Positions 14,475 through 52,946 of a stretch of 64,000 nucleotides of DNA are shown here, piece after piece (the stretch's first letter is position 1; each line of letters starts with the position of its first letter). Source of the stretch: Paraflavisolibacter caeni (GTDB lineage Bacteria; Bacteroidota; Bacteroidia; Chitinophagales; Chitinophagaceae); contig NZ_JAOTIF010000005.1 in NCBI RefSeq assembly GCF_025628885.1, positions 186,001 through 250,000 on the forward strand, written 5' to 3'. A program made the translations under genes and the position numbers. The notes below the pieces were generated by a model. That model was not told where the DNA came from. It worked only from the letters and a program-made list of their open reading frames with translations, and searched no databases.

Positions 14475-14502
14475 GAATATTCTTGTATTAAATCAGGGCA
14501 GA

Positions 14503-15225: not shown

Positions 15226-15270
15226 GTGAGTTCTTTTTTGATTAATGATTCATTGCTTTTCAACAGTCCC

Positions 15271-16845: not shown

Positions 16846-16855
16846 TTTACGATCG

Positions 16856-32241: not shown

Positions 32242-32276
32242 GCTAGTAAAACGTTTTACTTGAACGTTTTACTAGC
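32242..32276. promoter_or_regulatory. LacI-family operator pair upstream of the SusCD-inositol block
   Basis: An exact 14-base inverted repeat (GCTAGTAAAACGTT at 32242-32255 and its complement at 32263-32276) encloses TTACTTG. Inside, AGTAAAACGTTTTACT (32245-32260) is a perfect 16-base palindrome with the central CG typical of LacI-family operators, and the right part, CTTGAACGTTTTACT, is a second imperfect site whose left half CTTGAACG recurs in the palindrome at 50095-50106. The remaining bases of this 500-base gap (32277-32572) show nothing definite. Confidence 0.7.
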
Positions 32277-32572
32277 CATAAACAACAAAACACATTAAAC
32301 GATTGGCCTTATGTTCAAACCATTTTCTCCAATTGACTGGTTAGTATGCCTATGTGATACTCCACCTAGATAATTTCTTATTAAATATCGGCTGAAACAA
32401 CAGATAGCTTTCACTGCAGTACATTCTGATGGAAAGCTATTAAAATTAGTGGCGTTATTGTGATACGCGGAGGGAATTGTGTGTCCTTAAATGAATATCC
32501 TACTATCGACAAAGGGTTTTCCTACTTAAAACGAATTAGATAAGTATTTTTTTATTCAACCAACGATTGTAT

Positions 32573-35536
32573 ATGAAAATTAAATCCTGCCTATTTCTAT
32601 TGCTGTTGTTTTCGTTTACAGCTGCTTTTGCTCAAAACCGATCAATAACTGGTCGTGTTACTTCTTCAAAAGGCAACACCATGCCGGGAGTCACAGTTAC
32701 TCAAAAAGGATCCCAAAACTCAGTTGTAACGGATGAAGAAGGTAAGTATAGTATAATAGTTCCATCAACCGAAAATCTCCTACTCGTATTTTCTTCTGTA
32801 GGCAGTAAAACCCAGGAAATTGCCCTGGGCACAAAGAAAGTTATCGATGTTGTATTGACAGAAGGGGTCTCTACGCTGGGGGAGGTTGTTGTAGTTGGTT
32901 ATGGTAGCCAAAGCCGGAAAAACCTATCGAGTTCAATTTCAACTGTACGCCCCGATGATTTTAACCGAGGGGCCATTACCGACGTAAGGCAGTTAATGCA
33001 GGGAAAAGTTGCAGGGCTCAATATTACTGCCAGTGGTAACCCCAATGCACCTGCTGCCGTTGTATTAAGAGGAGCATCCACTTTAAACAGCTCTCAGTCG
33101 CCTTTATACGTAATCGATGGAATTCCAGGTGCAGATATTTCTGCGATTGCCCCAGACGACATTACCTCAATTGATGTTTTAAAGGACGCAGCGGCTACAG
33201 CCATTTATGGGAACCGCGCAGCCAATGGGGTTATCATGGTCACTACTAAAAAAGGAAGAAGAGGACAATTTTCAATTGGCTACTCGGGATATGTAGGGCA
33301 TGAAAAGGTAGCGAACAGGCTTGAAATGATGGATGCTGACGAATTAAGATCCCTATTAACCAAGAACGGCCAGGCTTTTGCCCCGGCAGATGATAAAGGA
33401 GCAAATACAGATTGGCAGAAAGAAGTTGAGAGGTCTTTTGCGATTTCACATAATCATAATTTGTCCATTAGCGGCGGCACAGAACATGGTAATTACAGCG
33501 CAAGCATCAACTATGCGGAAAAAGAGGGCATCATGAGATTCAGTGATCTGAAGCGTTTGATTGCCCGCTTATCAATAGAACAATCAGCACTGAAAGATAA
33601 AATAAGGTTTGGAATGATGGTTACCAATTCCAACAGTAATGCCAACAATGTTCCATTGTTAAATACAGTGTTGACTCAAATGATCCGGTACCTGCCTGTA
33701 TCACCAGTAAGAAATGCTGATGGGACTTATTTTGAAAACTTTGCAACGGTAAATTCATATAACCCTGTTGCTATGATTGAACAAGCACAGGATAATACTA
33801 AATCCAATAGCCTGATCGGAAGCTTTACCACACATGTAAAACTTCCTTTTGATCTCACCTATGATCTCAATGCTTCTTATCAAAATTACACCAACCTTCA
33901 TGGAGAATACTATAATAGTTATTATTCCAAATACAGTGCCATCAGGAACTTTGGCACCAATGGTCTTGCCTTAAGAAACGCATACCAAAACACTAATAAA
34001 ATATTGGAATCCTATTTGACCTGGAATAAAAAGTATGGCATTCATTCAATCAATGCTGTACTCGGATATTCCTGGCAAGGAAATGTAATTGGGGAAGGTT
34101 TCCAAACAACAAGCACCAATTTCCCGACTGATAATATTGGTTACAATAATCTTTCCTTAAGCAATCCATATGCAATCGCACCTTTCCGGGTTGACTTTGG
34201 TGCGGATGGGATTTACCAGGAAACACGACTTATATCTGACTTTCTCCGATTGAATTACAACCTTAGTGATAAATACCTTTTACAGCTTTCCGTAAGAAGG
34301 GATGGCAGCTCTGTGTTTGGGGCCAATAATCAATGGGGATATTTCCCATCAGCTGGTTTAGCCTGGAGAATCATCCAGGAAGGTTTCATGAACCATCAAA
34401 AGTTTTTCACAGATCTTAAATTAAGAGCAAGCTATGGCGTTACGGGGAATTCTACTGGATTCAATGCCTATACAGCGCAAATCATGTCCGGCAGCTTAGG
34501 AACATTCTATAATAACGGTACTCAAATGGCTGCCTATGGACCTATTCAAGCTGATAACCCGAATCTTGAATGGGAAAAAACAGCAACAGCCAATATAGGG
34601 TTGGATTTCACAATATTGAATGGAAAAATTAGCGGTACACTGGAGGCATATAATAAGAACACTACAGGAATGATCTACGGTTACACTGTCAATCCGGTAT
34701 TGATCCCAACCGGCAGGATCACAGCAAACGGCGGCAGCATGAACAATAGAGGAATAGAACTAAGTCTGAATGCCAGTCCAGTAAGAACCAGCAAGTTTAA
34801 TTGGAATACAAGCCTGAACCTGGCCCATAATAGAAATGAAATTACCGGCCTTACCAATCAATTATTTGCAGGAGGAGATTCTGTACGTATTACAGGACCG
34901 AACGGACAAGGACAAACAGGAAGTACCATACAGATCCTGAAATCAGGAAAGCCTGTTGGACAATTCTTCACACTGGAATATGCCGGTAAGACAGCTGATG
35001 GTATTTCTCAATATTATGATCCGAGCAGAAAGCTCACGACAACGCCAAGGATAGGTGTAGATTATGGATACCTGGGAAGCCCTCAGCCTAAATTATTACT
35101 TGGATGGACCAACACATTCCAATATGGAAATTTTGATTTGAATGTTTTTCTCAGGGGATGTCTTGGAAACAAGATATTTAACGCGACCCGCGCTGACCTG
35201 TTCAGGCCAAGTACCGCACAATACAGCAATATCCTGAAAGATGCTGCCAATGAACCTATCAACGATGTAAACGTTTACAAATATTCTACCCGCTTTATTG
35301 AAGATGGAAGTTATGTACGATTAGACAATGCAACCCTGGCTTATAGTTTTAAAAAGCTTGGCGATAATATTAGAATGCTCAAGGTTTATACAACAGTTAA
35401 CAACTTCTTTGTGATCACAAAGTATAAAGGAATTGACCCTGAAATCAGCCAGGGAGGTCTCGCGCCAGGCTATGATAACAATAATTTTTATCCCAGAACA
35501 AGAACAATTCTCCTAGGCCTGAATGTATCATTCTAA
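32573..35536 (+). CDS. SusC/RagA-family TonB-linked outer-membrane transporter
   Basis: The ATG at 32573 is used (two codons after a TTG in frame) and gives the signal peptide MKIKSCLFLLLLFSFTAAFA. Then come the carboxypeptidase-like domain (RSITGRVTSSKGNTMPGVTV, VTDEEGKYSIIVP), the TonB-box region EVVVVGYGSQSRKN, the plug (VRQLMQGKVAGLNITASGNP, PLYVIDGIPG, DDITSIDVLKDAAATAIYGNRAANGVIMVTTKKG) and a barrel of about 750 residues ending NVSF. It leads a plus-strand run with SusD, three putative periplasmic or surface glycan enzymes and the inositol genes, so it probably imports the oligosaccharide that ends in inositol (inference). Confidence 0.95.
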   Translation: MKIKSCLFLLLLFSFTAAFAQNRSITGRVTSSKGNTMPGVTVTQKGSQNSVVTDEEGKYSIIVPSTENLLLVFSSVGSKTQEIALGTKKVIDVVLTEGVSTLGEVVVVGYGSQSRKNLSSSISTVRPDDFNRGAITDVRQLMQGKVAGLNITASGNPNAPAAVVLRGASTLNSSQSPLYVIDGIPGADISAIAPDDITSIDVLKDAAATAIYGNRAANGVIMVTTKKGRRGQFSIGYSGYVGHEKVANRLEMMDADELRSLLTKNGQAFAPADDKGANTDWQKEVERSFAISHNHNLSISGGTEHGNYSASINYAEKEGIMRFSDLKRLIARLSIEQSALKDKIRFGMMVTNSNSNANNVPLLNTVLTQMIRYLPVSPVRNADGTYFENFATVNSYNPVAMIEQAQDNTKSNSLIGSFTTHVKLPFDLTYDLNASYQNYTNLHGEYYNSYYSKYSAIRNFGTNGLALRNAYQNTNKILESYLTWNKKYGIHSINAVLGYSWQGNVIGEGFQTTSTNFPTDNIGYNNLSLSNPYAIAPFRVDFGADGIYQETRLISDFLRLNYNLSDKYLLQLSVRRDGSSVFGANNQWGYFPSAGLAWRIIQEGFMNHQKFFTDLKLRASYGVTGNSTGFNAYTAQIMSGSLGTFYNNGTQMAAYGPIQADNPNLEWEKTATANIGLDFTILNGKISGTLEAYNKNTTGMIYGYTVNPVLIPTGRITANGGSMNNRGIELSLNASPVRTSKFNWNTSLNLAHNRNEITGLTNQLFAGGDSVRITGPNGQGQTGSTIQILKSGKPVGQFFTLEYAGKTADGISQYYDPSRKLTTTPRIGVDYGYLGSPQPKLLLGWTNTFQYGNFDLNVFLRGCLGNKIFNATRADLFRPSTAQYSNILKDAANEPINDVNVYKYSTRFIEDGSYVRLDNATLAYSFKKLGDNIRMLKVYTTVNNFFVITKYKGIDPEISQGGLAPGYDNNNFYPRTRTILLGLNVSF

Positions 35537-35545
35537 TTAATAAAA

Positions 35546-37174
35546 ATGAACCTGATCAATATGAAAAGAATATTAACATATATCCTGTTCTCAGTGTCTG
35601 TTATCGGTTTGTTGGAATCATGTCATAAAATAGATGTGCCGATAACATCAGAACTGACCCCAAATGTCTTTCCCCAAACTGACGCTCAGTTTTTACAGGC
35701 AGCAGGCCCGGCCTACGCTGCATTAAGAGGAAACTATGGATTGGATTATTGGTTCATGCAGACTTTAAGCTCTGATGAAGCAATCATGCCTGCACGTGGC
35801 GGCAACTGGTATGATAACCAAAATTACCGCATGCTGCATTACCATGACTGGACAAAGGATCATGGATTCACTGGCGCAACCTGGACCTGGTTATCAAGAC
35901 TTATTGGCACCACGAACCAGGCGCTTTCCATACTGGGTCAAACAATGCCAACCGGAGCAACTAAAACTGCCAGTCTTAGCGAATTAAAAGTTGTTCGTGC
36001 CCTCGGTTATTTTATGATGATGGATCTGTATGGCAACGTACCCCTTGATACGGTTTACGGAGACTTCACACAACATAAAAACCTGCCAAGAGCTGAAGTC
36101 TTCAACTTTATTGAGAAAGATGTAAAAGCAGCATTGCCCTACCTAACCCCGACTACAGGTCAGCCTATGTATGGAAGGGCCAATAAGTACACAGCCTTTG
36201 CCTTACTGGCGAAAATGTATGTGAATGCAGCTTATTATACCGGTGCAGATCGTTTTAATGATTGCATTATTGCCTGTGACAGTATCATCAATTCCGGAAA
36301 GTATGCATTGGAGCCAAGAAGTAGTTACCTGAAGATGTTCTATCCGAACAATGGACCGCAAATGAAGGAATTCATTTTTGCCATTCCCTTTGATCCTTCA
36401 GCAACTGCGATGCCTAATACAAATGGTTTTATGTATCGTGCCCGCTATGATGTACCAAGATCAATGAGATCAAAATACAGTCTTCCTTATACTACTGAAG
36501 GCCCCGAAAGCACATTGCCTGAATTTTATGCCCATTTCAATGACCCAAATGACATCAGGAATAACCAATGGCTTACCGGCTTACAATACTATCATAACGG
36601 CAATCCTGTTATGATCACCACAACAAAAAAAGGATATGACCAAACATATACGGGTTCTGACGGAGCAGCAACCTATACGTTCCAACTCAACCTTACACCT
36701 AATATTACGCTTAGGCAAAGTGTAGCAACATTTGATGTTGGCAATGATGAGATTGGATGGAACATGGGATATCGTAATATCAAGTTCTACCCTGACAGTA
36801 CATCCATTTCCAGGAACCAAAACAATGACATGCCTCTCTTCCGCTATTCAGATATCCTATTAATGAAAGCTGAGGCCATTCTTCGTGGAGGTACTCCGAC
36901 ACAGAACCAAACAGCACTTTCTTTAGTGAATGATTTGAGGGCACAACGCACGACTTCTGCGCCATTAACAGCTGTCACTCTTGAAAATCTTTATTCTGAA
37001 AGATCCCGTGAATTTGCAATGGAAACCTGGCACCGCAATGATATGATCCGGTTTGGAAAGTTTGAAGGTAGCTGGGGCTTTAAAACAGACGCTAGTGTAA
37101 ATCGCCGCATTTTCCCTATTCCGACTTCAGCTCTTACCGTCAATCCTAACCTGGTTCAAAATCCAGGTTATTAA
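35546..37174 (+). CDS. SusD/RagB-family substrate-binding lipoprotein
   Basis: Starts nine bases after the SusC stop, at 35546 or at the ATG five codons in (MKRILTYILF). Lipoprotein signal with Cys in GLLESCHKID. SusD landmarks: FLQAAGPAYAALRGNYG, TNQALSILGQ, ELKVVRALGYFMMMDLYGNVPLDT, VFNFIEKDVKAALPYLTP, ALLAKMYVNAAYY, and the C-terminal FRYSDILLMKAEAILRGG, LYSERSREFAMETWHRNDMIRFGKF, FPIPTSALTVNPNLVQNPGY. Forms the lid of the transporter encoded just upstream. Confidence 0.93.
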   Translation: MNLINMKRILTYILFSVSVIGLLESCHKIDVPITSELTPNVFPQTDAQFLQAAGPAYAALRGNYGLDYWFMQTLSSDEAIMPARGGNWYDNQNYRMLHYHDWTKDHGFTGATWTWLSRLIGTTNQALSILGQTMPTGATKTASLSELKVVRALGYFMMMDLYGNVPLDTVYGDFTQHKNLPRAEVFNFIEKDVKAALPYLTPTTGQPMYGRANKYTAFALLAKMYVNAAYYTGADRFNDCIIACDSIINSGKYALEPRSSYLKMFYPNNGPQMKEFIFAIPFDPSATAMPNTNGFMYRARYDVPRSMRSKYSLPYTTEGPESTLPEFYAHFNDPNDIRNNQWLTGLQYYHNGNPVMITTTKKGYDQTYTGSDGAATYTFQLNLTPNITLRQSVATFDVGNDEIGWNMGYRNIKFYPDSTSISRNQNNDMPLFRYSDILLMKAEAILRGGTPTQNQTALSLVNDLRAQRTTSAPLTAVTLENLYSERSREFAMETWHRNDMIRFGKFEGSWGFKTDASVNRRIFPIPTSALTVNPNLVQNPGY

Positions 37175-37258
37175 TGGTTTAACTAAATGATATACGTTAA
37201 CAAATTTGTATCACATCCATACCAAAAATAAAATCTTGTCCCAATCAATTTTATAATT

Positions 37259-39040
37259 ATGAACAAAATTAACCGTAGCGAATTTTTGAAAACTTCCCTG
37301 AAAGCTGGCAGCCTAATGATGTTCAATCAATTGGGTGGTCCTCTTTTGTCTTATGCAACAGATACGAACTATAAACCCGGTCAAAAAGATATTGAACTTC
37401 TTAACCGATTGTTGGCCGCCAATGATATTAAAGTTGCAACTATATTGAAATCTGACAAACAAAGTTCGGGACGCGGACTAGGACAAGATTTTGCGTTCCT
37501 TGCATCTGCTTATACCTCCCAGGGTTCAAAATATTACCACAGTTCATCAATCATTCCTGCACTTGAAAAGTTAGCGTCTGTTTTACAGGAACACCAATCT
37601 GCAGACGGCACGCTTAATTTCGGGAACCTCGAATCACCGCCAGACACAGCATTCCTATTAGAATCGCTCGTTCCAGGTGCTTATATTCTGACAAAGGATG
37701 ATTCCCCGGCTTTAAATAATGTCAAAGGTGAAATCAAGAAGTTTCTACTAAAATGCGGTGAGGGATTGGTAACTGGTGGCGTGCATACGCCTAATCACAG
37801 GTGGGTAGTCTGTGGGGCATTAGCCAGGCTTAATGCCATCTATCCCAACCAGCGATATTTAAATCGAATAGATGACTGGATGGGTGAAGGCATCTTTATG
37901 GATAAAGATGGTCATTACCCGGAAAGAAGCCAGAACTATGGAAATGTAGAAAACAACTCACTCATTACATTAGGGCGATTGCTCAACAAGCCGGCATTGT
38001 TTGCTTTTCCCAGAAAGAACCTGGAAATGGTCTATTATTATATGGAGCCCAATGGTGATCTTGTTATCAATGATTCGCGCAGACAGGATCAATGGTCCTC
38101 GAAAAGCATTATGGCTTTTTACCTGCACTACAGATATTTAGCCATCAGGGAAAAAAATGGCATGTTTGCGGCTATTACCAGATTCATTGAACAAATGGAA
38201 GGTTTTGAAAAGGAAGTAATGGATAATCTTATTTATGACTTTTTAGAGAATCCATTGTTGCAGGAACAGCTTCCTGTCCCTTCAAAACTTCCCATCGAAT
38301 ATGAAAAACTGTTTACTACTTCCAGTTTATTAAGGATTCGTCATAACGATACGGCCACAACACTATTTGGTGGTGCTGATTGGCCAATTACTATCGCGTC
38401 TGGACGTTCCAATAGTCCTAATTTCTTTTCATATCGTAAAGGCAAGGCTATATTAAAATACATGAGGTTGTCGTCCAGCTTTTTTAGCATGGGTTATTTC
38501 TATAGTGATGGCATGAAAAAGGAAGGGAATAAATATGTACTATATAAAAAATTAGAAGTTCCTTATTACCAGCCATTACCCAAAGATAAAAGGAAGCCAG
38601 ACGGAGACTACAAATTGTCACCAAGTATAGATGACCGTTTCTGGAATAAAATGGATTTCTCTAACAGGCCTGTCAGCAATGTTAAGACGCTGGAGACGAA
38701 GGTTACCCTTACGGATAATAATGGGAAAAATGAATTGAATTTCCAGGTATCAGGACCATCGGGGGTTTATGTAACAATAGAGCTTTGCTTTAACGAAGGA
38801 GGAAAACTCACAGGTGTAGTTGAAGGGGAAAATGATAACACCTTTTTACAAAGCGGGGAAGGCACCTACGAATTTGAAGGAGATAAGATCACCTTCGGCC
38901 CAGGAACAGGAAATATTAAAATGATCAGGGGCCTGGAAGGTGAAAGATATAGCACACACTTCGGAAGCCTGAGAACTAAAGGCATGCATGTTTACCTGAC
39001 AGGGGTTACACCATTTAATCACACGCTAAAATTCAGTTAA
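37259..39040 (+). CDS. Exported protein of unknown family with lyase/toroid-like N-terminal and beta-sandwich C-terminal halves
   Basis: 593 residues, not recognised as a named family. The N-terminus NRSEFLKTSLKAGS resembles the Tat-like leaders of many Bacteroidota carbohydrate enzymes but has only one Arg. Residues about 45-330 are helical with conserved-looking polar patches: TPNHRWVVCGALARL (Asn179, His180), DGHYPERSQNYGNVENNS (about 217-234) and INDSRRQDQWSSKSI. Residues about 350-593 are beta-rich. Helical toroid plus sandwich is the plan of several polysaccharide lyases (heparinase II/III-like and PL8-like), whose sites use Asn/His/Tyr/Arg. Position between SusD and DUF4861/GH105 genes supports a uronate-specific lyase that would supply the unsaturated uronyl product GH105 uses. 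This is inference. Confidence 0.5.
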   Translation: MNKINRSEFLKTSLKAGSLMMFNQLGGPLLSYATDTNYKPGQKDIELLNRLLAANDIKVATILKSDKQSSGRGLGQDFAFLASAYTSQGSKYYHSSSIIPALEKLASVLQEHQSADGTLNFGNLESPPDTAFLLESLVPGAYILTKDDSPALNNVKGEIKKFLLKCGEGLVTGGVHTPNHRWVVCGALARLNAIYPNQRYLNRIDDWMGEGIFMDKDGHYPERSQNYGNVENNSLITLGRLLNKPALFAFPRKNLEMVYYYMEPNGDLVINDSRRQDQWSSKSIMAFYLHYRYLAIREKNGMFAAITRFIEQMEGFEKEVMDNLIYDFLENPLLQEQLPVPSKLPIEYEKLFTTSSLLRIRHNDTATTLFGGADWPITIASGRSNSPNFFSYRKGKAILKYMRLSSSFFSMGYFYSDGMKKEGNKYVLYKKLEVPYYQPLPKDKRKPDGDYKLSPSIDDRFWNKMDFSNRPVSNVKTLETKVTLTDNNGKNELNFQVSGPSGVYVTIELCFNEGGKLTGVVEGENDNTFLQSGEGTYEFEGDKITFGPGTGNIKMIRGLEGERYSTHFGSLRTKGMHVYLTGVTPFNHTLKFS

Positions 39041-39100
39041 GCGGCAAAATAATTTTTTAGTAATCAAACTTCATTATTACACAAATCCTATGTTTTTATC

Positions 39101-40390
39101 ATGATCAGAAACGTTTTATTTATTTGGTTGAGCATCACGATCGTTGTCTCTTTCTCATGCAAAAACGGAAGCAACAGTGGCAACCACCAAATAATTCTAA
39201 CTAATACATCAGATGTCAAGCTAACCGATAAGCCAGTCATCATTAAAAGGCAGGATTTGCCCTACAGCAAGGATAGTCAATTATTTCCCTTAATTACCAG
39301 CAGTAATGGTGATACTATCCAGGCGCAGCTAGATGATACTGATCATGATAAAAAATGGGATGAATTATTCTTTGTCATTGATCTTTCTCCAAAAGAAGAG
39401 AAAACACTGAGTTTGGCATGGACCAGTTCTCCGATCAAGTATGAAAATAGAAGCCATGTCCGCTTTGGTGTCCGCCAAACAAAGGAGAGTCATGTAGCTC
39501 CTGCAATGAGTGATACTTTTTATGCAGATCAATTACCTGGTGTTATTGGCTATCAACACTACCAAACGGACGGCCCTACCTGGGAAAATGATAAGGTTGG
39601 ATTCAGACAATATCTTGATGGCCGTAATTCAATTGACGTCTTTGGAAAAACAGTTTCCTATATGACGCCTGATAGTGTTGGAATTGGCAAAGATGGCTAT
39701 ACAGAGAATAATTATAGTGTGATGAAAGACTGGGGGACCGATATACTTGCTGTTGCCAACTCGGTTGGCATTGGTGGCATATCACTTATGATCAAGGATA
39801 GTTTAGCAAGACTTGGTGTAACAGAACAGGATTCTATTAACAATGTTGATTCTACCATCTTCAGGATTCAATCAAATGGTCCTGTGCGCTCTATCATGAA
39901 TTTTTCTTACAAAGGATGGAAACCATTGGACAGGAATTTATCAGTTGAACAAACTACCAGCATATGGCCCGGAATGTATGCATTTAAAAATACAGTGAGC
40001 ATCGATCATCTTCAAGGGGATGAGCAATTGTTGATAGGCCTGGCCAACTCAAATACTGCTAAGAAACCAACAGAACTCATATTGAATGATCAATGGGTTG
40101 CACTGCTTACCCACGATAAACAATCCATAAATAAAACATGGTATTTGGGAATGGCATTGATCCTTCCCAAAGATGTCTACCAGGGATATATAGAGGCGCC
40201 AAAGCAAGGCAGGGTTTCCAATACTTTCCTTGGCAGGTTAAAAATCAGGAATCATCAACCAATCAGTTATTATGCAGTGGCTTGCTGGGAACTAACTGAT
40301 CCACAATTCAGCAAGGCTGATTATTTCACTAATTATGTCCGTAACATGGTTGACCAAATGACAGCAGAAGTTAAAGTAAAGATCCAATAA
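39101..40390 (+). CDS. DUF4861-family lipoprotein
   Basis: 429 residues; lipoprotein signal with Cys20 in VSFSCKNG. The whole body matches the DUF4861 plan: IILTNTSDVKLTDKPVIIKRQDL, IQAQLDDTDHDKKWDELFFVIDL, VRFGVRQ, YQTDGPTWENDKVGFRQYLDGRN, DYGTD-like DWGTDILAVANSVGIGGISL, and the late TWYLGMALILPKDVYQGY. The fold is beta-rich. Family members occur beside GH88/GH105 and lyase genes in polysaccharide loci and may act on or bind uronate-containing oligosaccharides, but no reaction is assigned. It sits 15 bases before the GH105 gene, clearly in the same transcript. Confidence 0.75.
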   Translation: MIRNVLFIWLSITIVVSFSCKNGSNSGNHQIILTNTSDVKLTDKPVIIKRQDLPYSKDSQLFPLITSSNGDTIQAQLDDTDHDKKWDELFFVIDLSPKEEKTLSLAWTSSPIKYENRSHVRFGVRQTKESHVAPAMSDTFYADQLPGVIGYQHYQTDGPTWENDKVGFRQYLDGRNSIDVFGKTVSYMTPDSVGIGKDGYTENNYSVMKDWGTDILAVANSVGIGGISLMIKDSLARLGVTEQDSINNVDSTIFRIQSNGPVRSIMNFSYKGWKPLDRNLSVEQTTSIWPGMYAFKNTVSIDHLQGDEQLLIGLANSNTAKKPTELILNDQWVALLTHDKQSINKTWYLGMALILPKDVYQGYIEAPKQGRVSNTFLGRLKIRNHQPISYYAVACWELTDPQFSKADYFTNYVRNMVDQMTAEVKVKIQ

Positions 40391-40404
40391 TATACCATTC
40401 AGTA

Positions 40405-41769: not shown

Positions 41770-41820
41770 CTGTGATTAAAAACATGCAGTATCGATGAAG
41801 AAACCTGTTATCTAAAAAGT

Positions 41821-43649: not shown

Positions 43650-43651
43650 AC

Positions 43652-44698: not shown

Positions 44699-44709
44699 CA
44701 CATAATACA

Positions 44710-46575
44710 ATGGCAACAAAAACTAAAAGGTTAACAGTAGCGCAAGCAACAATTGAATATCTACAGAATCAATTTGTAGAAAGAGATGGTATCGAGTATC
44801 CCTTTTTCGGAGGATGCTTTGGAATATTCGGACATGGCAATGTTGGAGGTATTGGCCAGGCTTTACTGCAATATCCTTCCTTTCAATATTACCAGTGCAG
44901 AAATGAGCAGGCCATGGTTCACACCGCCATTGCATATGCCAAGGTTAAAAACAGGTTAGGCGCTTTTGCATGTACAACTTCCATTGGCCCGGGAGCAACT
45001 AATATGGTTACGGGCGCAGCAACGGCAACCATCAACAGGATACCCGTTTTACTTTTGCCAGGAGATATTTTTGCAAAGCGTTCAGTTGATCCGGTACTGC
45101 AGCAGTTAGAATACCAGTATTCAAACGATATTTCTGTTAATGACTGCTTTAAACCGGTAAGCAAATACTGGGACAGGATCAACAGGCCAGAACAGTTGAT
45201 TGCGGCCTTGCCAAAGGCCATGCGCATTCTCACCTCCCCTTCTGAAACGGGAGCTGTTACCTTAGCACTTCCACAGGATGTCCAGGCAGAATCCTATGAT
45301 TTCCCCATCACGATGTTTCAGAAGAAAGTCTGGCAAATTCAAAGAGTTCGTCCTGACAAGTCTGCACTTCAAAAGGCTGCGGATTTGATCAGTTCTTCAA
45401 AACGACCAGTAATCATTGCAGGAGGAGGTGTCATTTACAGCGATGCCTGCAATGAATTGAAAAAGCTGGTAAACCGCACAGGAATACCAGTTGTTGAAAC
45501 CTATGCCGGAAAAGGTTCTTTACGATTTGATGAATTACAAAATCTTGGTGCAGCCGGTGTTACTGGCACGCCGGGCGCTATTTCGACCTGTCAGCATGCT
45601 GATGTGGTGATTGGCATAGGCACACGTTATAGTGACTTTACTTCCATATCACAATCTGCTTTTCAAAATCCAGATGTCAGGTTTATTAATATCAACGTTT
45701 CGGAGTTTGATTCATTCAAACAGGGAGCTTTGCCTATAATCGGAGATGCAAAAGAAACCATACAGGAACTAGATCAATTATTATCTTCTTTTACCGTGCA
45801 CAACCAGTATGGTTCTGATATCAGCAGGCATAACCAGGAATGGAATGAAACTGTAGATAAAATTTATAGTTTACAACATGGCGTTCCTGTTAGCCAGGGC
45901 GAAGTGGTAGGAGCAGTCAATAATTTCTCCTCTTCAAAAGATATTGTACTGTGTGCAGCAGGCAGTTTACCAGGGGATCTGCATAAACTATGGAGAACTC
46001 AGGATAGCAAAGGTTTTCATATGGAATATGGATACTCTTGCATGGGTTATGAAATAGCCGGTGGATTAGGGGCTAAAATGGCAGATCCATCCCGTGAAGT
46101 ATACGTAATGGTGGGAGATGGCAGTTATTTAATGATGGCGCAAGAGATTGCCACATCCATACAAGAAGGTTATAAAATAACGATCATTCTCATTAACAAT
46201 AACGGGTTTGCAAGTATCGGCGGATTATCCAGATCATTGGGATCAAATGGTTTTGGAACGCATTATAAATTCAGAAACAATACCACAGGGCATTTGGATG
46301 GTAATTACCTACCTGTTGATCTTGCAGCCAATGCTGAAAGTTTAGGAGCCATTGTTTTAAGGACTCAATCCATAGATGAATTTAAACATGCACTTGCGGA
46401 AGCTAAGCAAACAAACATCACAACAGTAATTTATATTGAAACAGACAGGGATCAACGGGTTGATGGATATAGCTGGTGGGAGGTACCAGTGGCAGAAGTA
46501 TCTACCATAAAAACTGTCCAGGAAAGCTTTGAAAGATTAATCAATAATAAAAAACGGCAACGCTATCATTTATAA
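44710..46575 (+). CDS. iolD: 3D-(3,5/4)-trihydroxycyclohexane-1,2-dione acylhydrolase
   Basis: 621 residues, a thiamine-diphosphate enzyme of the acetolactate-synthase fold. The N-terminus has the IolD-specific ERDGIEYPFFGGCFGIFGHGNVGGIGQAL and the Glu-containing YYQCRNEQAMVHTAIAYAK; a central nucleotide-fold domain follows (PVIIAGGGVIYSDA; DVVIGIGTRYSDFT); the TDP-binding motif GDGSYLMMAQEIATS ends in INNNGFASIGGL. The enzyme opens the ring of the dione to 5-deoxy-D-glucuronate. This C-C bond hydrolysis is unique to inositol catabolism, making it the strongest single marker of the pathway here. Confidence 0.95.
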   Translation: MATKTKRLTVAQATIEYLQNQFVERDGIEYPFFGGCFGIFGHGNVGGIGQALLQYPSFQYYQCRNEQAMVHTAIAYAKVKNRLGAFACTTSIGPGATNMVTGAATATINRIPVLLLPGDIFAKRSVDPVLQQLEYQYSNDISVNDCFKPVSKYWDRINRPEQLIAALPKAMRILTSPSETGAVTLALPQDVQAESYDFPITMFQKKVWQIQRVRPDKSALQKAADLISSSKRPVIIAGGGVIYSDACNELKKLVNRTGIPVVETYAGKGSLRFDELQNLGAAGVTGTPGAISTCQHADVVIGIGTRYSDFTSISQSAFQNPDVRFININVSEFDSFKQGALPIIGDAKETIQELDQLLSSFTVHNQYGSDISRHNQEWNETVDKIYSLQHGVPVSQGEVVGAVNNFSSSKDIVLCAAGSLPGDLHKLWRTQDSKGFHMEYGYSCMGYEIAGGLGAKMADPSREVYVMVGDGSYLMMAQEIATSIQEGYKITIILINNNGFASIGGLSRSLGSNGFGTHYKFRNNTTGHLDGNYLPVDLAANAESLGAIVLRTQSIDEFKHALAEAKQTNITTVIYIETDRDQRVDGYSWWEVPVAEVSTIKTVQESFERLINNKKRQRYHL

Positions 46576-46596
46576 AACTTAAATCAAAATTGAATA

Positions 46597-48069
46597 ATGC
46601 TGGCACTAAAAAATTACATTAACGGGAAATGGGTAGAAAGTGTTTGTTCAGAGACAACAGATGTACTTAACCCAGCTACGGCGGAAGTATTAGCAAAAGT
46701 CCCTTTTGGTCCTTCTACAGCCCGGGATATAGACGATGCGGCTCTTGCAGCACATGAAGCCTATTTGCAATGGAAAGATGTTCCTGTATTGAAGCGTATT
46801 CAACCATTGTTCAAGCTCAAGCAATTATTGGAAGAAAATCGTGAAGAACTAGCCAGAATTATTACCATGGAATGTGGCAAAACGCTGGCAGAGTCGAATG
46901 GGGAACTACAAAGATCCATTGAAAACGTAGAAGTGGCCACAGGAGCTCCTATGCAGTTACAAAGCGAATTCCTGGAAAATATCGCAAATGGTATCGATGA
47001 ATATATGATCAGGCAGGCTGTAGGCGTGACTGCCTGTATTGCGCCTTTTAATTTTCCAGCCATGATCTCTTTCTGGTTTTTGCCCTATGCGATTGCATGT
47101 GGCAACAGCATGATCATAAAGCCTTCAGAAAAAGTGCCTTTGACCATGATGAAAATATTCGAGTTGATTGATCAGTTGGATCTCCCCCCCGGGCTTATCA
47201 ATTTAGTACATGGAGGCAAGCATTCAGTAGATGCCATATTGGATCATCCGAAAATCAACACGATCAGTTTCGTTGGAAGCACGCAGGTAGCCAGGTATAT
47301 CTATTCACGCGGGACTGCAAATGGAAAGAGGGTGCAGGCACAAGGAGGCGCGAAGAACCCGGTTGTAGTATTGCCAGATGCCGATATTGAAATGACATCG
47401 CAGATTATTACGGATAGCGTTTATGGTTGTGCGGGGCAACGTTGCCTGGCAGCTTCTGTGGTTATCACTGTAGATAATAATTCTAAAATCAAAGAGTCCT
47501 TATATGAATCAGCCAAAGCAAGAGCAGTAGGTTATGGGTTACATAAAGGAGTCGATATGGGGCCAGTCATTAGTAAAGAAAGCAAACACCGGATTGAAAC
47601 CCTGATTGAGAAAGGCGTGCATGAAGGAGGATCTGTTTTATTGGACGGAAGGAAACCCAATATCAAAGATTACGAACAAGGCAACTTTATTACCCCCACG
47701 ATCCTTGAAGATATCCCTGTACATGGTGAATTAATCAAAACAGAAATCTTTGGACCGGTTATGAGCCTGCTTCACATGAAAACGGTAGAAGATGCACTTG
47801 CTTTTATTAATGCCGGCACCTATGGTAATATGGCCTGCGTATTCACGAATAGTGGCTCAAGTGCCAGAAAGTTCAGAAATGAAGCAATGGCAGGAAATGT
47901 AGGCATCAACATAGGTATTGCAGCGCCCATGGCACAATTCCCTTTTAGTGGCTGGAAAGAAAGCTTTTTTGGAGACCTGCATGGCCAGGGGAAACATGCA
48001 TTTGAATTTTTTACACAAACAAAAGTCGTAGTTGAACGCTGGCCAAAAGAATGGTCCAGGAAATTTTAA
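46597..48069 (+). CDS. iolA: CoA-acylating methylmalonate/malonate-semialdehyde dehydrogenase
   Basis: 490 residues of the aldehyde dehydrogenase superfamily of the MmsA/IolA branch: YINGKWVES start, [59 protein letters not shown], and catalytic Cys283 in [11 protein letters not shown], which is the MmsA form of the motif. It oxidises malonate semialdehyde, made by IolJ, to acetyl-CoA and CO2 with NAD, and can also serve valine catabolism through methylmalonate semialdehyde. Position inside the iol cluster makes the inositol role primary. The gene is also called mmsA. Confidence 0.92.
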
Positions 48070-48080
48070 ACTTACAACAT

Positions 48081-48980
48081 ATGAAAATAGCCAATGCACC
48101 TTGTTCCTGGGGCGTCCTTGAGTTTGAGCTGGATGGTCCTGCCCTGGGATATGAACAAGTACTCAATGAGATTGCCGAAACGGGATATAAAGGGACAGAG
48201 TTGGGCGACTGGGGCTTTATGCCAACAGAGCCCAAAGCTTTAAGAACTGAAATAGGGAAAAGAGGCCTTTGTTTATTAGGCGCCTTTGTACCAGTTTCAT
48301 TATCGCAGGAAAAAGAACATGATCAAGGTATCATGGAAGCCTTAAAAGTGGCTGGTCTAATGTATGAGGCTGGTTATAAAGATGCATTTATTGTACTGGC
48401 CGATAATAATGGAACTGTCGCATACCGCACTAAAAATGCAGGCCGTATCAATGGCGAGGGCGGCCTTACCAAAGACGAAATGAACATCTTTGCTTCAGGA
48501 GTTGAAAAAATAGCAAAGGCAGTTAAGGAAAAGTATGGCATGAGGACAGTCTTTCATCATCATGCGGCAGGATATATAGAAACACCGGCTGAAATAGAAA
48601 GCCTGTTGCAGCTGACAGACCCAGACCTGGTAGGATTATGTTTCGATACGGGACATTTTCAATTTGGAGGAGGTGCAGACCCACTAGATTTCCTGAACAA
48701 GCATTGGCAACGAATCTGGCATGTACACTTTAAAGACCATTCTGACCAAGTAAAAGGTTTGTCAGCCAGGAACAATTGGGATTATTTTGAATCTGTAAAG
48801 CATGGAATTTTTTGCGAACTGGGAAAAGGAAATGTTGATTTTAAGGCTATCAAGAAATTTTTGGAGGAACAAAATTATGATGGCTGGATTGTGGTGGAAC
48901 AGGATGTGTTACCAGGCATGGGTAATCCAAAGCAATGTGCAGAAAACAACAGGATGTACCTGCAAACAATAGGTTTATAA
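48081..48980 (+). CDS. iolE: myo-inosose-2 dehydratase
   Basis: The ATG at 48081 (MKIANAPCSWGVLEFE) is chosen; the frame is open to 48051 but that start lies inside the iolA gene and precedes the family's natural beginning. The 299-residue TIM-barrel (xylose-isomerase-like) protein contains GYKGTELGDWGFMP, HHHAAGYIETPAEIESLL, GLCFDTGHFQFGGGADPLDFL, WHVHFKDHSD and WIVVEQDVLPG, which provide the metal ligands. It removes water from scyllo-inosose to give the trihydroxycyclohexanedione used by IolD. Confidence 0.93.
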   Translation: MKIANAPCSWGVLEFELDGPALGYEQVLNEIAETGYKGTELGDWGFMPTEPKALRTEIGKRGLCLLGAFVPVSLSQEKEHDQGIMEALKVAGLMYEAGYKDAFIVLADNNGTVAYRTKNAGRINGEGGLTKDEMNIFASGVEKIAKAVKEKYGMRTVFHHHAAGYIETPAEIESLLQLTDPDLVGLCFDTGHFQFGGGADPLDFLNKHWQRIWHVHFKDHSDQVKGLSARNNWDYFESVKHGIFCELGKGNVDFKAIKKFLEEQNYDGWIVVEQDVLPGMGNPKQCAENNRMYLQTIGL

Positions 48981-49005
48981 CTTAATTATTCTTAAAAAAA
49001 TTAGT

Positions 49006-50070
49006 ATGAAGCAAATCAATTTAGCGCTTTTAGGAATGGGGCGTATTGGTAAAATTCATTTTAATAATATTCAACAACATTTTCCTCATGCAAAAATAGT
49101 TACTGTTGGGGACCCCCAGATCGACGAGACATCTTTTAAAAAACAATATGGTGATGTTTTCATTTCAAACGATCCAAATGAAGTAATAGAACGGGCAGAT
49201 GTAGATGCGGTATTAATTTGTACACCCACAAGTTCTCATGCTGACCTGATTCAAAAAGCAATCCTTAATGGCAAGCATGTATTCTGTGAGAAACCTATGG
49301 ATCTTTCCCTTGAGAAAACAGCAGCATTATCTGCAATGGCTGCAGATATGGGCATCAAATTAATGCTAGGTTTTAACCGGCGTTTTGATCCTGATTTCAT
49401 GGAAGCACGCAAGGCAATTATGGAAGGGAAAATAGGAAATGTTCAAATTGTAAAGATCACGAGCAGGGACCCGGGCTTACCTCCTATCGATTATATCAAA
49501 AACTCTGGCGGATTGTTCCTGGATATGGCCATTCATGATTTCGATATGGCAAGGTATATCATGGGTAAAGAAGTGGTAGAAGTATATGCAAGAGGGTTGG
49601 TTTTGGTAGACCAGGCAGTTGGTGAAGCGGGAGATATTGATACAGCTTTAACTACGTTGATTTTTGAAGATGGCACTTATGCTGTCATTGATAACAGCCG
49701 AAAAGCTGTATATGGCTATGATCAGCGATTGGAAATATTTGGCAGTGGCGGGATGATACAGGTAGAGAATAGCCTTCACAACAGAAACATTATCTTCAAC
49801 GAAAAAGGTATACACCAGGCACTGCCTCTTGACTTTTTTATGGACCGCTATACAAAGTCATATTTAAAAGAAATGGAATTGTTTATTGATGCATTGCTGA
49901 ATGATACACCAATGCCTGTGGGCGGATATGATGGCTACCAGGCCACAAGGATCGCCATTGCAACCAGGAAGTCTATGGAAGAAGGCAGAAGTGTCAGGTT
50001 ATCTGAAATCACTATCAAGCTCAAAACCAGCTTAAACAGCATGCAACTTAATGAACAGACATCTATTTGA
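49006..50070 (+). CDS. iolG: myo-inositol 2-dehydrogenase (Gfo/Idh/MocA family)
   Basis: 354 residues. The Rossmann part has LLGMGRIGKIHFNNIQ, DAVLICTPTSSHADLIQKAI and the catalytic Lys96 in FCEKPMDLS; the second domain has the typical LMLGFNRRFDPDFMEARKAI, SGGLFLDMAIHDFDMARYIMG and YGYDQRLEIFGSGGMI. The D-x-x-x-H pair (Asp-Met-Ala-Ile-His) fits inositol 2-dehydrogenases. The enzyme oxidises inositol with NAD to inosose, the entry step. It is the last catabolic gene before the transporter, separated from it by 64 bases that contain a palindrome. Confidence 0.9.
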   Translation: MKQINLALLGMGRIGKIHFNNIQQHFPHAKIVTVGDPQIDETSFKKQYGDVFISNDPNEVIERADVDAVLICTPTSSHADLIQKAILNGKHVFCEKPMDLSLEKTAALSAMAADMGIKLMLGFNRRFDPDFMEARKAIMEGKIGNVQIVKITSRDPGLPPIDYIKNSGGLFLDMAIHDFDMARYIMGKEVVEVYARGLVLVDQAVGEAGDIDTALTTLIFEDGTYAVIDNSRKAVYGYDQRLEIFGSGGMIQVENSLHNRNIIFNEKGIHQALPLDFFMDRYTKSYLKEMELFIDALLNDTPMPVGGYDGYQATRIAIATRKSMEEGRSVRLSEITIKLKTSLNSMQLNEQTSI

Positions 50071-50094
50071 TATTTACAAAGAAGAAAATAAATT

Positions 50095-50106
50095 TTGAAC
50101 GTTCAA
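50095..50106. promoter_or_regulatory. LacI-type palindrome between iolG and the symporter gene
   Basis: A perfect 12-base palindrome TTGAACGTTCAA with central CG. Its half-site is the CTTGAACG seen at 32259-32266 (reading CTTGAACGTT on the complementary strand here), inside the operator pair in front of the SusC gene. It lies 29 bases before the symporter start codon. Confidence 0.55.
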
Positions 50107-50134
50107 GCTTATTGCTGAATTAAAACCATCGATA

Positions 50135-51766
50135 ATGAATAGATTGCAAGCCGCTGATTATATAGTTTTCTTTATTTATTTTATTGTAGTCGCTGCTTAT
50201 GGATATTATATCTACCATAAGAAAAAATCGGCGACCACAGATTCCAAAGACTTTTTCCTTGCTGAAGGTTCTCTTACATGGTGGGCTATCGGGGCATCTC
50301 TAATTGCTTCAAACATATCTGCCGAACATTTTATTGGAATGAGCGGATCTGGCTTTGCATTGGGCCTTGCGATTTCCACTTATGAATGGATGGCAGCAGC
50401 AACATTAATCATTGTAGCTGTATTTATTATTCCCCTTTATTTGAAGAACAGGATTTTTACAATGCCTCAATTCCTATCTAAGCGTTATAATGATAAGGTA
50501 AGTACTGTAATGGCCGTGTTCTGGTTGTTGGTTTATGTATTTATCAATCTTACTTCTATCATTTATCTAGGCTCCCTGGCCATATCTTCCATTTCAGGTA
50601 TTTCATTTGAATGGTGTATCGTTGGATTAAGCCTGTTTTCCCTAATTGTTACATTAGGAGGCATGAAAGTGATAGGGTATACAGATGTAATCCAGGTATT
50701 GGTTTTATTAATTGGCGGGCTGATCACGACTTACCTTGCTCTTTCCTTATTATCAGAACAATTTGGATATGGTAAAGACATCATGAAGGGCCTTTCTATA
50801 TTGAGAAAAGAAGCGCCGACACATTTTCATATGATATTTGACTCTACCAATCCACACTATAAAGAGCTGCCAGGGATGTCTGTTCTGATCGGAGGCATGC
50901 TGATCAACAACCTAGCCTATTGGGGATGTAACCAATATATTGTCCAACGCACTTTAGGAGCCGATCTGGTTACGGCTCGAAAGGGGATACTATTTGCAGC
51001 TTTTTTAAAGCTATTGATACCAGTCATTGCAGTATTGCCTGGCATCACCATGTATGTTTTGCATAAAAATGGCTTATTCCAACACGAAATGCTTGATGGA
51101 TCAGGCATCATTAAACCAGACCATGCTTACCCAACGCTCATGAACCTGTTGCCAGCCGGGTTAAAAGGCATTGCCTTTGCTGCACTCACAGCCGCGATTG
51201 TAGCTTCATTGGCTGGTAAAGCGAATAGTATTTCAACAATTTTTTCTTTGGATATCTATCATAAGTATTTTGATAAAAATGCCTCGGAAAAGAAGTTGGT
51301 TATAGTGGGCAGAGGCGCTGTTATTGTAGCGTTGCTGGTAGCAGCCCTGGTAACTCCTGCTTTAAAATCTTTAGACCAGGCCTATCAATTTATACAAGAA
51401 TATGTGGGATTTATTTCTCCAGGCGTGCTGGCAATATTCCTTCTAGGACTGTATTGGAAAAAGACTACAGCCAATGCAGCCATGGCCGGAGCCTTGCTTA
51501 CCATTCCAATCTCAACAATATTGAAGTTTTTACCTGCGTGGACCAATGGTGTTTTCCCTGACTATCCTTTTCTAGACAGGATGACAATTACTTTTGTATT
51601 ATTGGTAGTGATCATGGTTATCATGAGCCTATGGCACACAGAAAATAAACAGGAAAGAAGCATTATTCAAATTGATCAGACCTGGTTCAGAGTAAATCCG
51701 GGCTTTATATATGCCTCCATATTAATATGCGGCATACTTACTGCATTATACACCGTGTTTTGGTAG
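50135..51766 (+). CDS. Sodium/solute symporter (SSS family), probable inositol transporter
   Basis: 543 residues with about 13-14 hydrophobic helices. SSS/SLC5 features include the N-terminal ADYIVFFIYFIVVAAYGYYIY, the loop DFFLAEGSLTWWAIGASLIASNISAEHFIGMSGSGFALG with the sodium-site Ser/Ala-Asn region, NRIFTMPQFLSKRYN, and IAFAALTAAIVASLAGKANSISTIFSLDIY in the eighth-helix region. Homologues include mammalian sodium/myo-inositol cotransporters and bacterial sugar symporters. Being inside the iol operon it most likely brings free inositol across the inner membrane; GH105-released inositol in the periplasm would be its substrate (inference). Confidence 0.88.
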   Translation: MNRLQAADYIVFFIYFIVVAAYGYYIYHKKKSATTDSKDFFLAEGSLTWWAIGASLIASNISAEHFIGMSGSGFALGLAISTYEWMAAATLIIVAVFIIPLYLKNRIFTMPQFLSKRYNDKVSTVMAVFWLLVYVFINLTSIIYLGSLAISSISGISFEWCIVGLSLFSLIVTLGGMKVIGYTDVIQVLVLLIGGLITTYLALSLLSEQFGYGKDIMKGLSILRKEAPTHFHMIFDSTNPHYKELPGMSVLIGGMLINNLAYWGCNQYIVQRTLGADLVTARKGILFAAFLKLLIPVIAVLPGITMYVLHKNGLFQHEMLDGSGIIKPDHAYPTLMNLLPAGLKGIAFAALTAAIVASLAGKANSISTIFSLDIYHKYFDKNASEKKLVIVGRGAVIVALLVAALVTPALKSLDQAYQFIQEYVGFISPGVLAIFLLGLYWKKTTANAAMAGALLTIPISTILKFLPAWTNGVFPDYPFLDRMTITFVLLVVIMVIMSLWHTENKQERSIIQIDQTWFRVNPGFIYASILICGILTALYTVFW

Positions 51767-51869
51767 TTATTTTGTTATAAATAAATATAATGCGATATTA
51801 TTTTGTTCTTAAGGCAGAAAAATTACCTGATGTAGCGTTCCTTGAAAACATACAATTGTTTAAATATAT

Positions 51870-51877
51870 TAGTTTTG
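51870..51877 (+). promoter_or_regulatory. Possible -7 element for the LacI-family regulator gene
   Basis: TAGTTTTG fits the Bacteroidota TAnnTTTG element, 46 bases before the start codon, in a 157-base gap after the symporter gene. The nearest usable TTG (51842-51844) is 25 bases upstream, longer than usual, so the match is weak. Confidence 0.35.
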
Positions 51878-51923
51878 CTTGTATTTTTAAAAGCCAGGAA
51901 ATAACGATTTATTCAATTTAGAT

Positions 51924-52946
51924 ATGAAAAAGGTTTCTATTAAAGACATTGCGAAAGAAGCGGGAGTATCTTTTTCAACTGTATCAATCGTTTTAAACGG
52001 ACAGGGCAAGGAACGCAAGATCAGCGATAAGATGATCACAGAAATTTTTAAAGTGGCAGATCAATTGAACTACCGTCCGAATCAATTTGCTAAAAGCTTA
52101 CGTACAGGCAAAACCTTTACATTAGGATTGATCGTAGATGATATATCGAACTATTTCTTCGGACACCTGGCGAAATTTGTAGAAGAGGAAGCAGATAAGT
52201 TTGGGTATACGGTTATGTTTTGCAACAGTGAAAATAATGAGGGCAAGGCAAGAAACGTTTTAGGTACACTACTGGATAAGCAAATGGATGGATATATTAT
52301 CGCCCCCACATCTGGTATGGTCAACGAAATAGAAAACTTAGTTCGGGAAAAGAAACCAATTGTTTTAATAGACCGTTATTTCCAAAATGTACCGAGTAGT
52401 TATGTAACGATCGATAACTACAAAGGAGCTTATGATAGCGTTGACTATTTGATCAGGCAGGGGTATCAAAAAATTGCTCTTGTAACGAATGAGACAGATC
52501 AAATACAAATCCTTGATCGTGTTGAAGGGTATAAAGCTGCTTTAAGAAAACATAAGATATCTTTTTTACCAGAGTTGGTAAAAAAGATATCTTTCAAAAA
52601 TACGGAGCAAAAAACGATCAAGGAACTGGAAACATTCATAAAAGCACAGCCAGCTATAGATGCTATTTTGTTTACATCCAATAACCTGGGAATTCCAGGA
52701 CTTCAAAGTCTCAGGAATTTAAATATTAAAATCGCAACTGATATTGGCGTGATCTGTTTTGATGATCATGATCTTTTTCGTTTAGCATTTCCTGGGATCA
52801 CAGTAGTATCACAACCTATCAAAACTATTAGTAAAAAGGTTGTCAAACTTCTTTTGGACCAGATCGACGGTAATGTTTCAAAGGATCATCAAATTGTTTT
52901 ACCTCCCAACCTTATCATCCGGGATTCCACTCCTTTGCGTTCTTGA
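51924..52946 (+). CDS. LacI-family transcriptional regulator
   Basis: 340 residues. The N-terminal helix-turn-helix and hinge are complete: VSIKDIAKEAGVSFSTVSIVLNG, then LNYRPNQFAKSLRTGKTFTLGLIV. The periplasmic-binding-protein-like effector domain follows with DDISNYFFGHLAKFVEEEA, PIVLIDRYF, YVTIDNYKGAYDSVDYLI, IGVICFDDHDLFRLAFPGITVV and a closing RDSTPLR. LacI-family hinge helices insert at a central CG, as in the palindromes at 32245-32260 and 50095-50106, so this protein is the natural candidate to repress the whole SusCD-iol block, relieved by inositol or a catabolite. Codons about 211-223 encode an 18-base perfect hairpin (see 52554-52593). Confidence 0.9.
   Translation: MKKVSIKDIAKEAGVSFSTVSIVLNGQGKERKISDKMITEIFKVADQLNYRPNQFAKSLRTGKTFTLGLIVDDISNYFFGHLAKFVEEEADKFGYTVMFCNSENNEGKARNVLGTLLDKQMDGYIIAPTSGMVNEIENLVREKKPIVLIDRYFQNVPSSYVTIDNYKGAYDSVDYLIRQGYQKIALVTNETDQIQILDRVEGYKAALRKHKISFLPELVKKISFKNTEQKTIKELETFIKAQPAIDAILFTSNNLGIPGLQSLRNLNIKIATDIGVICFDDHDLFRLAFPGITVVSQPIKTISKKVVKLLLDQIDGNVSKDHQIVLPPNLIIRDSTPLRS
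52554..52593 (+). other. 18-bp perfect inverted repeat inside the LacI-family gene
   Basis: The arm AAGATATCTTTTTTACCA (52554-52571), a four-base loop GAGT and the exact complementary arm (52576-52593) lie in the coding region and encode the near-repeat KISFLPELVKKISF. The stem is AT-rich but long and perfect. Confidence 0.8.

Follow-up and report, generated by a model that had tools for sequence, protein, structure and literature searches.

The block analysed here lies in a window (the whole stretch of DNA studied, 64,000 nucleotides) from the 7.0 Mb genome, in 89 contigs, of Paraflavisolibacter caeni. It comprises 14 genes, all on the plus strand, in the order SusC-SusD-HYP-DUF4861-GH105-IolJ-B-C-D-A-E-G-SSF-LacI, where HYP is our working label for the exported-type protein encoded at 37259–39040. 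Content, strand, and order are all as given in the original prediction. The spacings along the block are 9, 84, 60, 14, 51, −1, 2, 11, 21, −19, 25, 64, and 157 bases, and the earlier description of the gaps as mostly under 65 bases was right, with SusD-HYP (84) and SSF-LacI (157) as the exceptions. This spacing suggests a single transcript for the block.

32246..32259, no strand: perfect 14-base palindrome GTAAAACGTTTTAC upstream of susC, candidate LacI operator (putative function)
32567..35536, plus: SusC/RagA TonB-dependent outer-membrane transporter (TIGR04056, 716 bits; start codon uncertain)
35546..37174, plus: SusD/RagB surface glycan-binding lipoprotein (PF07980, PF14322)
37259..39040, plus: HYP, exported-type, predicted polysaccharide-lyase fold of alpha/alpha toroid and beta sandwich (no Pfam or NCBIfam match)
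39101..40390, plus: DUF4861 probable lipoprotein, carbohydrate-type super-sandwich fold in a model (PF16153, 320 bits)
40405..41769, plus: GH105-type unsaturated uronyl hydrolase, probably exported (PF07470)
41821..42762, plus: class II aldolase, putative IolJ by position, acting to give DHAP and malonate semialdehyde (PF01116, TIGR00167)
42762..43649, plus: IolB, 5-deoxy-glucuronate isomerase (TIGR04378, 320.6 bits, cut-off 205)
43652..44698, plus: IolC, 5-dehydro-2-deoxygluconokinase (TIGR04382, 385 bits, cut-off 300)
44710..46575, plus: IolD, trihydroxycyclohexanedione hydrolase (TIGR04377, 905 bits, cut-off 715)
46597..48069, plus: IolA, (methyl)malonate-semialdehyde dehydrogenase (TIGR01722, 542 bits, cut-off 448)
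48051..48980, plus: IolE, inosose dehydratase, by best hit (TIGR04379, 202 bits, below the cut-off of 290)
49006..50070, plus: IolG, inositol 2-dehydrogenase (TIGR04380, 424 bits, cut-off 355)
50135..51766, plus: SGLT-type sodium:solute symporter (SSF), proposed inositol importer (PF00474; vSGLT E 4e-149)
51924..52946, plus: LacI-family regulator, proposed repressor of the block (PF00356, PF13377)

Adjacent susC and susD genes (TIGR04056, PF07980), co-localised with glycan enzymes (GH105 and, by its modelled lyase fold, HYP) whose export was judged by eye from their N-termini, place the block among polysaccharide utilisation loci (PULs). The palindrome GTAAAACGTTTTAC occurs as a single copy in the genome and is a plausible LacI operator. 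Its 12-base core, TAAAACGTTTTA, was found in five of 215 loci, one copy (in L067) lying ~70 bases before a LacI-type gene, and in no stretch with iol genes among those 215, so the comparative case for an operator is slight. Promoter and terminator scans gave numbers near chance (61 found against 57.4 expected, and 15 against 18.0).

As in the myo-inositol iol operon known from Bacillus subtilis, the functions of IolG, E, D, B, C, J, and A are all assigned in the block, and the earlier claim of a complete inositol set held in this sense: five were assigned by curated models (IolB, IolC, IolD, IolG, and IolA, the last through TIGR01722, all exceed their NCBIfam cut-offs) and IolE and IolJ from their best hits and their places in the block. 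The aldolase exceeds only the general ketose-bisphosphate aldolase model (TIGR00167, 259.9 against 215.6) and was given the IolJ role because it adjoins other iol genes in relatives. Unlike in the B. subtilis operon, the iol set stands behind SusCD, a lyase candidate, and GH105, and uptake would depend on an SGLT-type symporter resembling those found beside MIOX (myo-inositol oxygenase), which is another entry into inositol catabolism. The iol half can stand alone without glycan genes: IolD exceeds its cut-off in five of 298 genomes of the order, and the other four have no SusCD or HYP in the examined stretches around iol and no HYP genome-wide. A KduI/IolB-family gene lies elsewhere in the genome (contig C14) and, as a guess from its family, could encode a KduI for the further metabolism of the uronate that GH105 releases.

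Directly downstream of the block, on the minus strand at 53094–55190, lies a gene for a protein with Kelch repeats, CBM6, and a type IX secretion tail, which scores above cut-off with the N-acetylneuraminate epimerase (NANM) model. At 4433–16920, also on the minus strand, a second glycan-type cluster encodes a GalB-type beta-galactosidase (NF041463, 1008 bits), a SusD-like protein, and a protein weakly similar to the SslE/ImpA metalloprotease.

HYP and the enzymes and transporter encoded with it

Naming HYP by sequence was rejected, as profile searches gave no Pfam or NCBIfam match and comparison with the PDB gave nothing useful (best profile-search E 0.69). An AlphaFold model built from 21 sequences (pLDDT 84.6, pTM 0.83) was more informative. 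When it was compared with the PDB by Foldseek, ranks 1–37 were all uronate polysaccharide lyases (10–13% identity, best TM 0.58), including GAGase VII (E 9e-11), PL33, PL17, heparinase III, and hyaluronate lyases, with xanthan lyase at rank 37. Xanthan lyase splits mannose from GlcA, the type of bond proposed for HYP. None of the 95 homologues departs from HYP at N179, H180, or Y227, and R275, Q276, D277, R359, R403, and Y436 are likewise invariant over this set; the N-H invariance is partly biased, because the N-H stretch sat in one of the seeds used to find homologues, and Y227 was in no seed. Alignment of HYP with 16 heparinase-type proteins by hhalign placed N179-H180 and Y227 on their N-H and Tyr, weakly (E 0.0036, probability 9%). 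HYP resembles the heparinase II/III-like lyases (PL8, 12, 17, 33) in its predicted toroid and sandwich and perhaps in these weakly aligned positions, but differs from them in its low identity, in being missed by PDB sequence search, and in its linkage to inositol genes. From the model, we infer that HYP is a polysaccharide lyase of a family without a name, and we propose that it would cleave hexosyl- or glucosaminyl-1,4-uronosyl-inositol. The lyase expected by the original prediction, which envisaged an order of lyase, GH105, and inositol import, now has a candidate with a predicted uronate-lyase fold.

Membership of the next enzyme in GH105 is clear (PF07470, 285.9 bits, cut-off 26.6), and its D228 aligns with the Asp of the YteR WLD motif, which we take to be catalytic. 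It is 54–72% identical to copies in HYP-linked loci and 50–59% identical to copies in pectin-type surroundings, a same-genome copy with GH28-, GH51-, and GH43-like neighbours being 59% identical, and its nearest solved relative is 3k11, which is BT_4174 of a rhamnogalacturonan locus. As these identities overlap, GH105 was rejected as a substrate indicator. Activity restricted to rhamnogalacturonan fragments had been named as a result that would count against an inositol glycan, and on this point the outcome is mixed, as the sequence does not discriminate between pectin and an inositol glycan. Among the best 80 HYP loci, GH105 is nearby in one of the 33 that bear MIOX; in the MIOX loci that lack it, GH28 might release the inositol, which is a guess. 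DUF4861, often the next gene after HYP in relatives, gave a model (AlphaFold, pLDDT 81.3) that resembles parts of GH38, PL26, and phosphorylases, and these likenesses (best TM 0.47) reveal no function.

In three genomes, the symporters beside MIOX are 78–81% identical to that of the window; the figure is 81% for the metagenome-assembled genome Sphingobacteriales bacterium 44-61, compared with 31% and 61% for two iol operons without SusCD and 31% and 47% for the Belliella and Parabacteroides loci described below. Close relatives (74%, 78%) adjoin MIOX without SusCD or HYP in two genomes (L201, L202), and this occurrence of its relatives beside MIOX, even where SusCD and HYP are missing, suits a role as inositol importer. 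It is most similar to vSGLT and SGLT1, which was not decisive as to substrate.

Linkage of HYP to two inositol pathways

A scan of 84,980 species genomes supplied the best 80 named HYP loci used for counting, and more exist. Neighbours within 10 kb on each side, less on some shorter contigs, were labelled by their best BLASTP hits to marker proteins, with genes called by a program that retains the longest frames and cannot be relied on where genomic G+C is high; for two of the 80 (L120, L131) no HYP frame was obtained and no neighbour mark was counted. Near HYP, MIOX was found in 33 of these 80 loci, an iol mark in nine (eight at 45% identity or more), and SusC or SusD in 59, distributed over three bands of HYP identity as 28/33, 27/37, and 4/10. 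L128 was counted as iol on a 39% IolD match, which the 45% threshold used for the tree excludes, and on the tree L127 was labelled by its IolC (54%), its IolB being below cut-off. When the genomes of the 38 unmarked loci and L128 were searched whole, MIOX exceeded its cut-off in 27 of 39 and IolB in nine (35 in union), and together with the 41 others this gives MIOX or iol somewhere in the genome for 76 of the best 80 loci. In the remaining four (L112, L122, L125, L126), neither MIOX nor IolB was over its cut-off genome-wide; two of these, L122 and L125, show an IolB-like match that falls short of the cut-off, and a PI-PLC gene adjoins their HYP.

The association is also seen among the 298 genomes of the order, of which 20 encode HYP (10 close, with E below 1e-160, and 10 distant, at 33–37% identity) and 59 encode MIOX over cut-off. 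MIOX is present in 18 of the 20 HYP genomes and in 41 of the 278 others, which thus have MIOX without HYP (Fisher 3e-12, uncorrected for kinship, with the distant-HYP genomes included and a 60th MIOX genome, holding a fragment below cut-off, left out). Every close-HYP genome has MIOX, in nine of the 10 at less than 11 kb from HYP; eight of the 10 distant-HYP genomes have it, on other contigs or megabases away. The distant clade (L037, L044–L052) lies in other neighbourhoods, three of them with weak GH105-like genes. HYP homologues also occur in genomes of Acidobacteriota, Verrucomicrobiota, Pseudomonadota, and Actinomycetota.

In a tree of 95 HYP sequences, made by a quick method, the iol label needs four changes, and well-supported branches force four. 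The iol-linked groups are the window with Sphingobacteriales 44-61, five Cyclobacteriaceae, Parabacteroides PF5-6, and a Balneolaceae genome, and the pair formed by the window and 44-61 is nested inside a mostly MIOX-linked group. The 44-61 locus has nearly the same gene order, with LacI and SSF swapped and 66–81% protein identity. Co-occurrence of glycan and iol genes in other genomes, proposed earlier as a check, is borne out both by this near-copy and by iol genes beside HYP in four tree groups. In two of the Cyclobacteriaceae, Belliella calami and Cognataquiflexum nitidum, which were traced to the end, the iol half precedes the glycan half, unlike in the window, LacI-iolJ-B-C-D-SSF-A-E-G being followed by SusC-SusD-phosphoesterase-HYP-DUF4861-GH105. 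The Cyclobacteriaceae iol loci share HYP, DUF4861, GH105 (all but L075), and iol with the window, at 30–32% identity for SusC, 23–25% for SusD, and 31% for the single symporter compared; because these SusCD and symporter identities are low, what all groups share is HYP and inositol use, not the whole import set. Window SusD is 50–77% identical to the SusD proteins of 44-61 and of Chitinophagaceae-type MIOX loci, and 23–36% identical to those of the Cyclobacteriaceae and Parabacteroides iol loci.

The window's own genome contains a second inositol locus, on the minus strand of contig C10 at ~38–78 kb (L033, L215), with two MIOX genes, two SusCD pairs (67–72% identical to those of the window), HYP (59%), a symporter (79%), two phosphoesterases, an HGSNAT-like protein, GH89, GH28, and GH92; the MIOX-SusC-SusD arrangement there looks like a tandem duplication. 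Within it, a 1255-residue open reading frame (L215:7976–11743) has a GH28-like start and matches most of the GH92 marker, possibly as a natural fusion or a gene-calling artefact. Another genome (G255; L206, L236) carries MIOX-SusC-SusD-HGSNAT-SSF-GH89-GH28-GH92-GH28 without HYP, which we read as a hydrolase-only version of the inositol locus. In Balneolaceae (L127:11893–13071, L122, L125), HYP directly precedes PI-PLC (PF16670), present as one gene or two; in L127, ABC transporter genes and iolG-B-C-like genes come next.

These observations strongly link HYP and its glycan genes to inositol use. Chance is an unlikely source of the link, because relatives join the same lyase-type protein and importer to the unrelated MIOX, and the functional tie between glycan genes and inositol use claimed for the window is strengthened by HYP being connected elsewhere, with similar SusCD and symporter proteins, to that second pathway. 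Homologous SusCD pairs beside unrelated catabolic genes had been named as evidence against such a tie; SusCD homologues do adjoin other catabolic genes, but these often belong to another inositol pathway.

Candidate substrates and relation to known loci

We favour, at a probability of roughly 60%, the reading that the block is an inositol-glycan utilisation locus whose best-fit substrate is the head of plant glycosyl inositol phosphorylceramides (GIPCs). The SusCD pair would bind and import a soluble glycan with a uronic acid on a myo-inositol core and another sugar capping O4, best fitted by Man or GlcN(Ac)-1,4-GlcA-1,2-inositol with or without phosphate, as in the plant GIPC head. In the periplasm, HYP would remove the cap by beta-elimination to leave unsaturated uronyl-inositol, which GH105 would hydrolyse to free myo-inositol and 4-deoxy-5-keto-uronate; the SGLT-type symporter would take up the inositol, IolG-E-D-B-C-J-A would burn it to DHAP, acetyl-CoA, and CO2, and LacI would probably hold the block repressed as long as neither inositol nor a derivative is available. 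In GIPC heads, GlcN(Ac) is linked to GlcA. GIPCs are one main class of plant sphingolipids (PMC4970446), and in their heads a hexose or an amino sugar sits on GlcA, which is joined to inositol phosphate, with pentoses and deoxyhexose added (PMC11496612, PMC4970446); a reference title in PMC11496612 names free Man-alpha1,4-GlcA-alpha1,2-myo-inositol from rose cells. To use this Man-GlcA-inositol, a cell would need a lyase acting on the 1,4 bond, together with GH105, Iol, and a means of importing inositol, which matches the gene set of the window.

Related loci add to this fit. Among the best 80 HYP loci, seven have PI-PLC (PF16670), 35 phosphatase-type genes, 29 GH92, 16 HGSNAT-like genes, eight GH89, 26 DUF4861, and eight GH105, and GH43, an arabinofuranosidase, and GH29 are also encoded in related loci; the HGSNAT-like protein of L095 matches HGSNAT structures at E 4.5e-21 and is a relative of the glucosaminide acetyltransferase. 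The presence of PI-PLC, phosphatase, GH89, HGSNAT-like, and GH92 genes in related loci agrees with the earlier suggestion of GIPCs as a fitting substrate. Enzymes for the cap sugar, uronic acid, phosphate, and inositol of GIPCs are present when relatives are pooled, and the window alone has the uronate and inositol parts only. The window locus has no phosphatase, mannosidase, GH89, or PI-PLC gene, and PF16670, found in three of 13 genomes searched whole, has no match anywhere in the window's genome. Lacking a phosphatase, a mannosidase, and a PI-PLC, the window locus would depend either on heads already released and dephosphorylated or on a contribution from other loci.

The same inositol-glycan logic could serve another substrate, such as GPI-anchor glycans, bacterial or fungal inositol phospholipids, or phosphatidylinositol mannosides, which PI-PLC, phosphatase, GH92, HGSNAT-like, and GH89 enzymes would dismantle. 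The GPI glycan is Man3-GlcN-inositol-P, and the GH92, GH89, HGSNAT-like, and PI-PLC genes of related loci amount to a toolkit suited to its breakdown, GH89, HGSNAT-like, and GH92 genes being present in G255 even without HYP. Bacteroidota themselves have inositol lipids (PMC9246714). We nevertheless consider such substrates unlikely for the window, where mannosidase, GH89, and PI-PLC are absent and where the modelled uronate-lyase fold of HYP and a GH105 for unsaturated uronides would find no uronic acid in a GPI glycan. A lyase-free version of events, in which HYP is a hydrolase or binding protein on a lyase scaffold (for example, an alpha-glucuronidase freeing inositol from trimmed GlcA-inositol, with GH105 acting on side products), would explain how 32 of the 33 MIOX-type HYP loci among the best 80 manage without the nearby GH105 that a pure lyase route needs. 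That all top 37 structural matches are lyases, that the N-H and Tyr residues are invariant, and that the window locus has GH105 but no trimming hydrolase make this version quite improbable.

It is also possible to see the block as a pectin or rhamnogalacturonan oligosaccharide locus (SusCD, lyase, DUF4861, GH105) that fronts an iol operon by chance, the two halves serving different substrates. Several facts fit this picture: the solved protein nearest to the window GH105 is 3k11, which comes from a rhamnogalacturonan locus; a HYP relative (L043, 47%) sits among pectin-type genes (Pel9A-like, PcRGLX-like, two GH105, DUF4861), with MIOX on another contig; and iol occurs without SusCD or HYP in four of the five genomes of the order with a true IolD. 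MIOX near HYP in 33 of the best 80 loci and iol adjoining HYP in four tree groups argue against it, and because attachment to two inositol pathways by chance is not credible, we rejected chance adjacency as the main reading and regard it as very unlikely. For the inositol-glycan reading with a GIPC head as substrate, the functional link, the modelled lyase candidate, and the fit to GIPC are supported, and the checks on GH105, which does not discriminate, and on the SusCD neighbours gave mixed results. The broader proposal, which we regard as evenly balanced, is that the block represents an undescribed, widespread class of loci for plant GIPC head groups in Bacteroidota and Balneolota, built on a new lyase family that would cut the cap off GlcA-inositol and coupled several times to iol or MIOX.

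The type of locus is already known, as are all of its families except HYP. The block resembles other Bacteroidota PULs in pairing SusC with SusD, in encoding lyase-like and GH enzymes whose N-termini are of the export type, in its LacI-type regulator, and in keeping to a single strand; it differs from the usual ones in ending in a myo-inositol pathway (MIOX in relatives) rather than a hexose or uronate pathway and in containing an unnamed family with a lyase fold. Flavobacterium phosphate utilisation systems (PUSI) have a SusCD-like pair beside PF16670 and PF00149 proteins and are induced by phosphate starvation, and their authors suggest lipid head groups as one target (PMC8115612). The SusCD-like pair is shared with the block, and PF16670 with some HYP loci, but PUSI are phosphate-starvation genes, and the portion of PMC8115612 consulted mentions no lyase, GH105, or inositol catabolism. 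Our literature search, which covered titles and the starts of abstracts and took in few subscription journals or preprints, found, among the papers listed, no SusCD locus for GIPC or other inositol glycans. Within that coverage, this combination of genes appears to be undescribed, as do the HYP lyase-fold family and the recurrent attachment of one lyase-type enzyme to two inositol pathways.

The repeated coupling of one release enzyme to two non-homologous inositol pathways indicates the released sugar without the substrate being known. If the inositol-glycan reading is correct, it would give named genes for the consumption of GIPC heads and a new lyase family, and HYP together with MIOX or iol would be a genetic marker for inositol-glycan feeding in bacteria.
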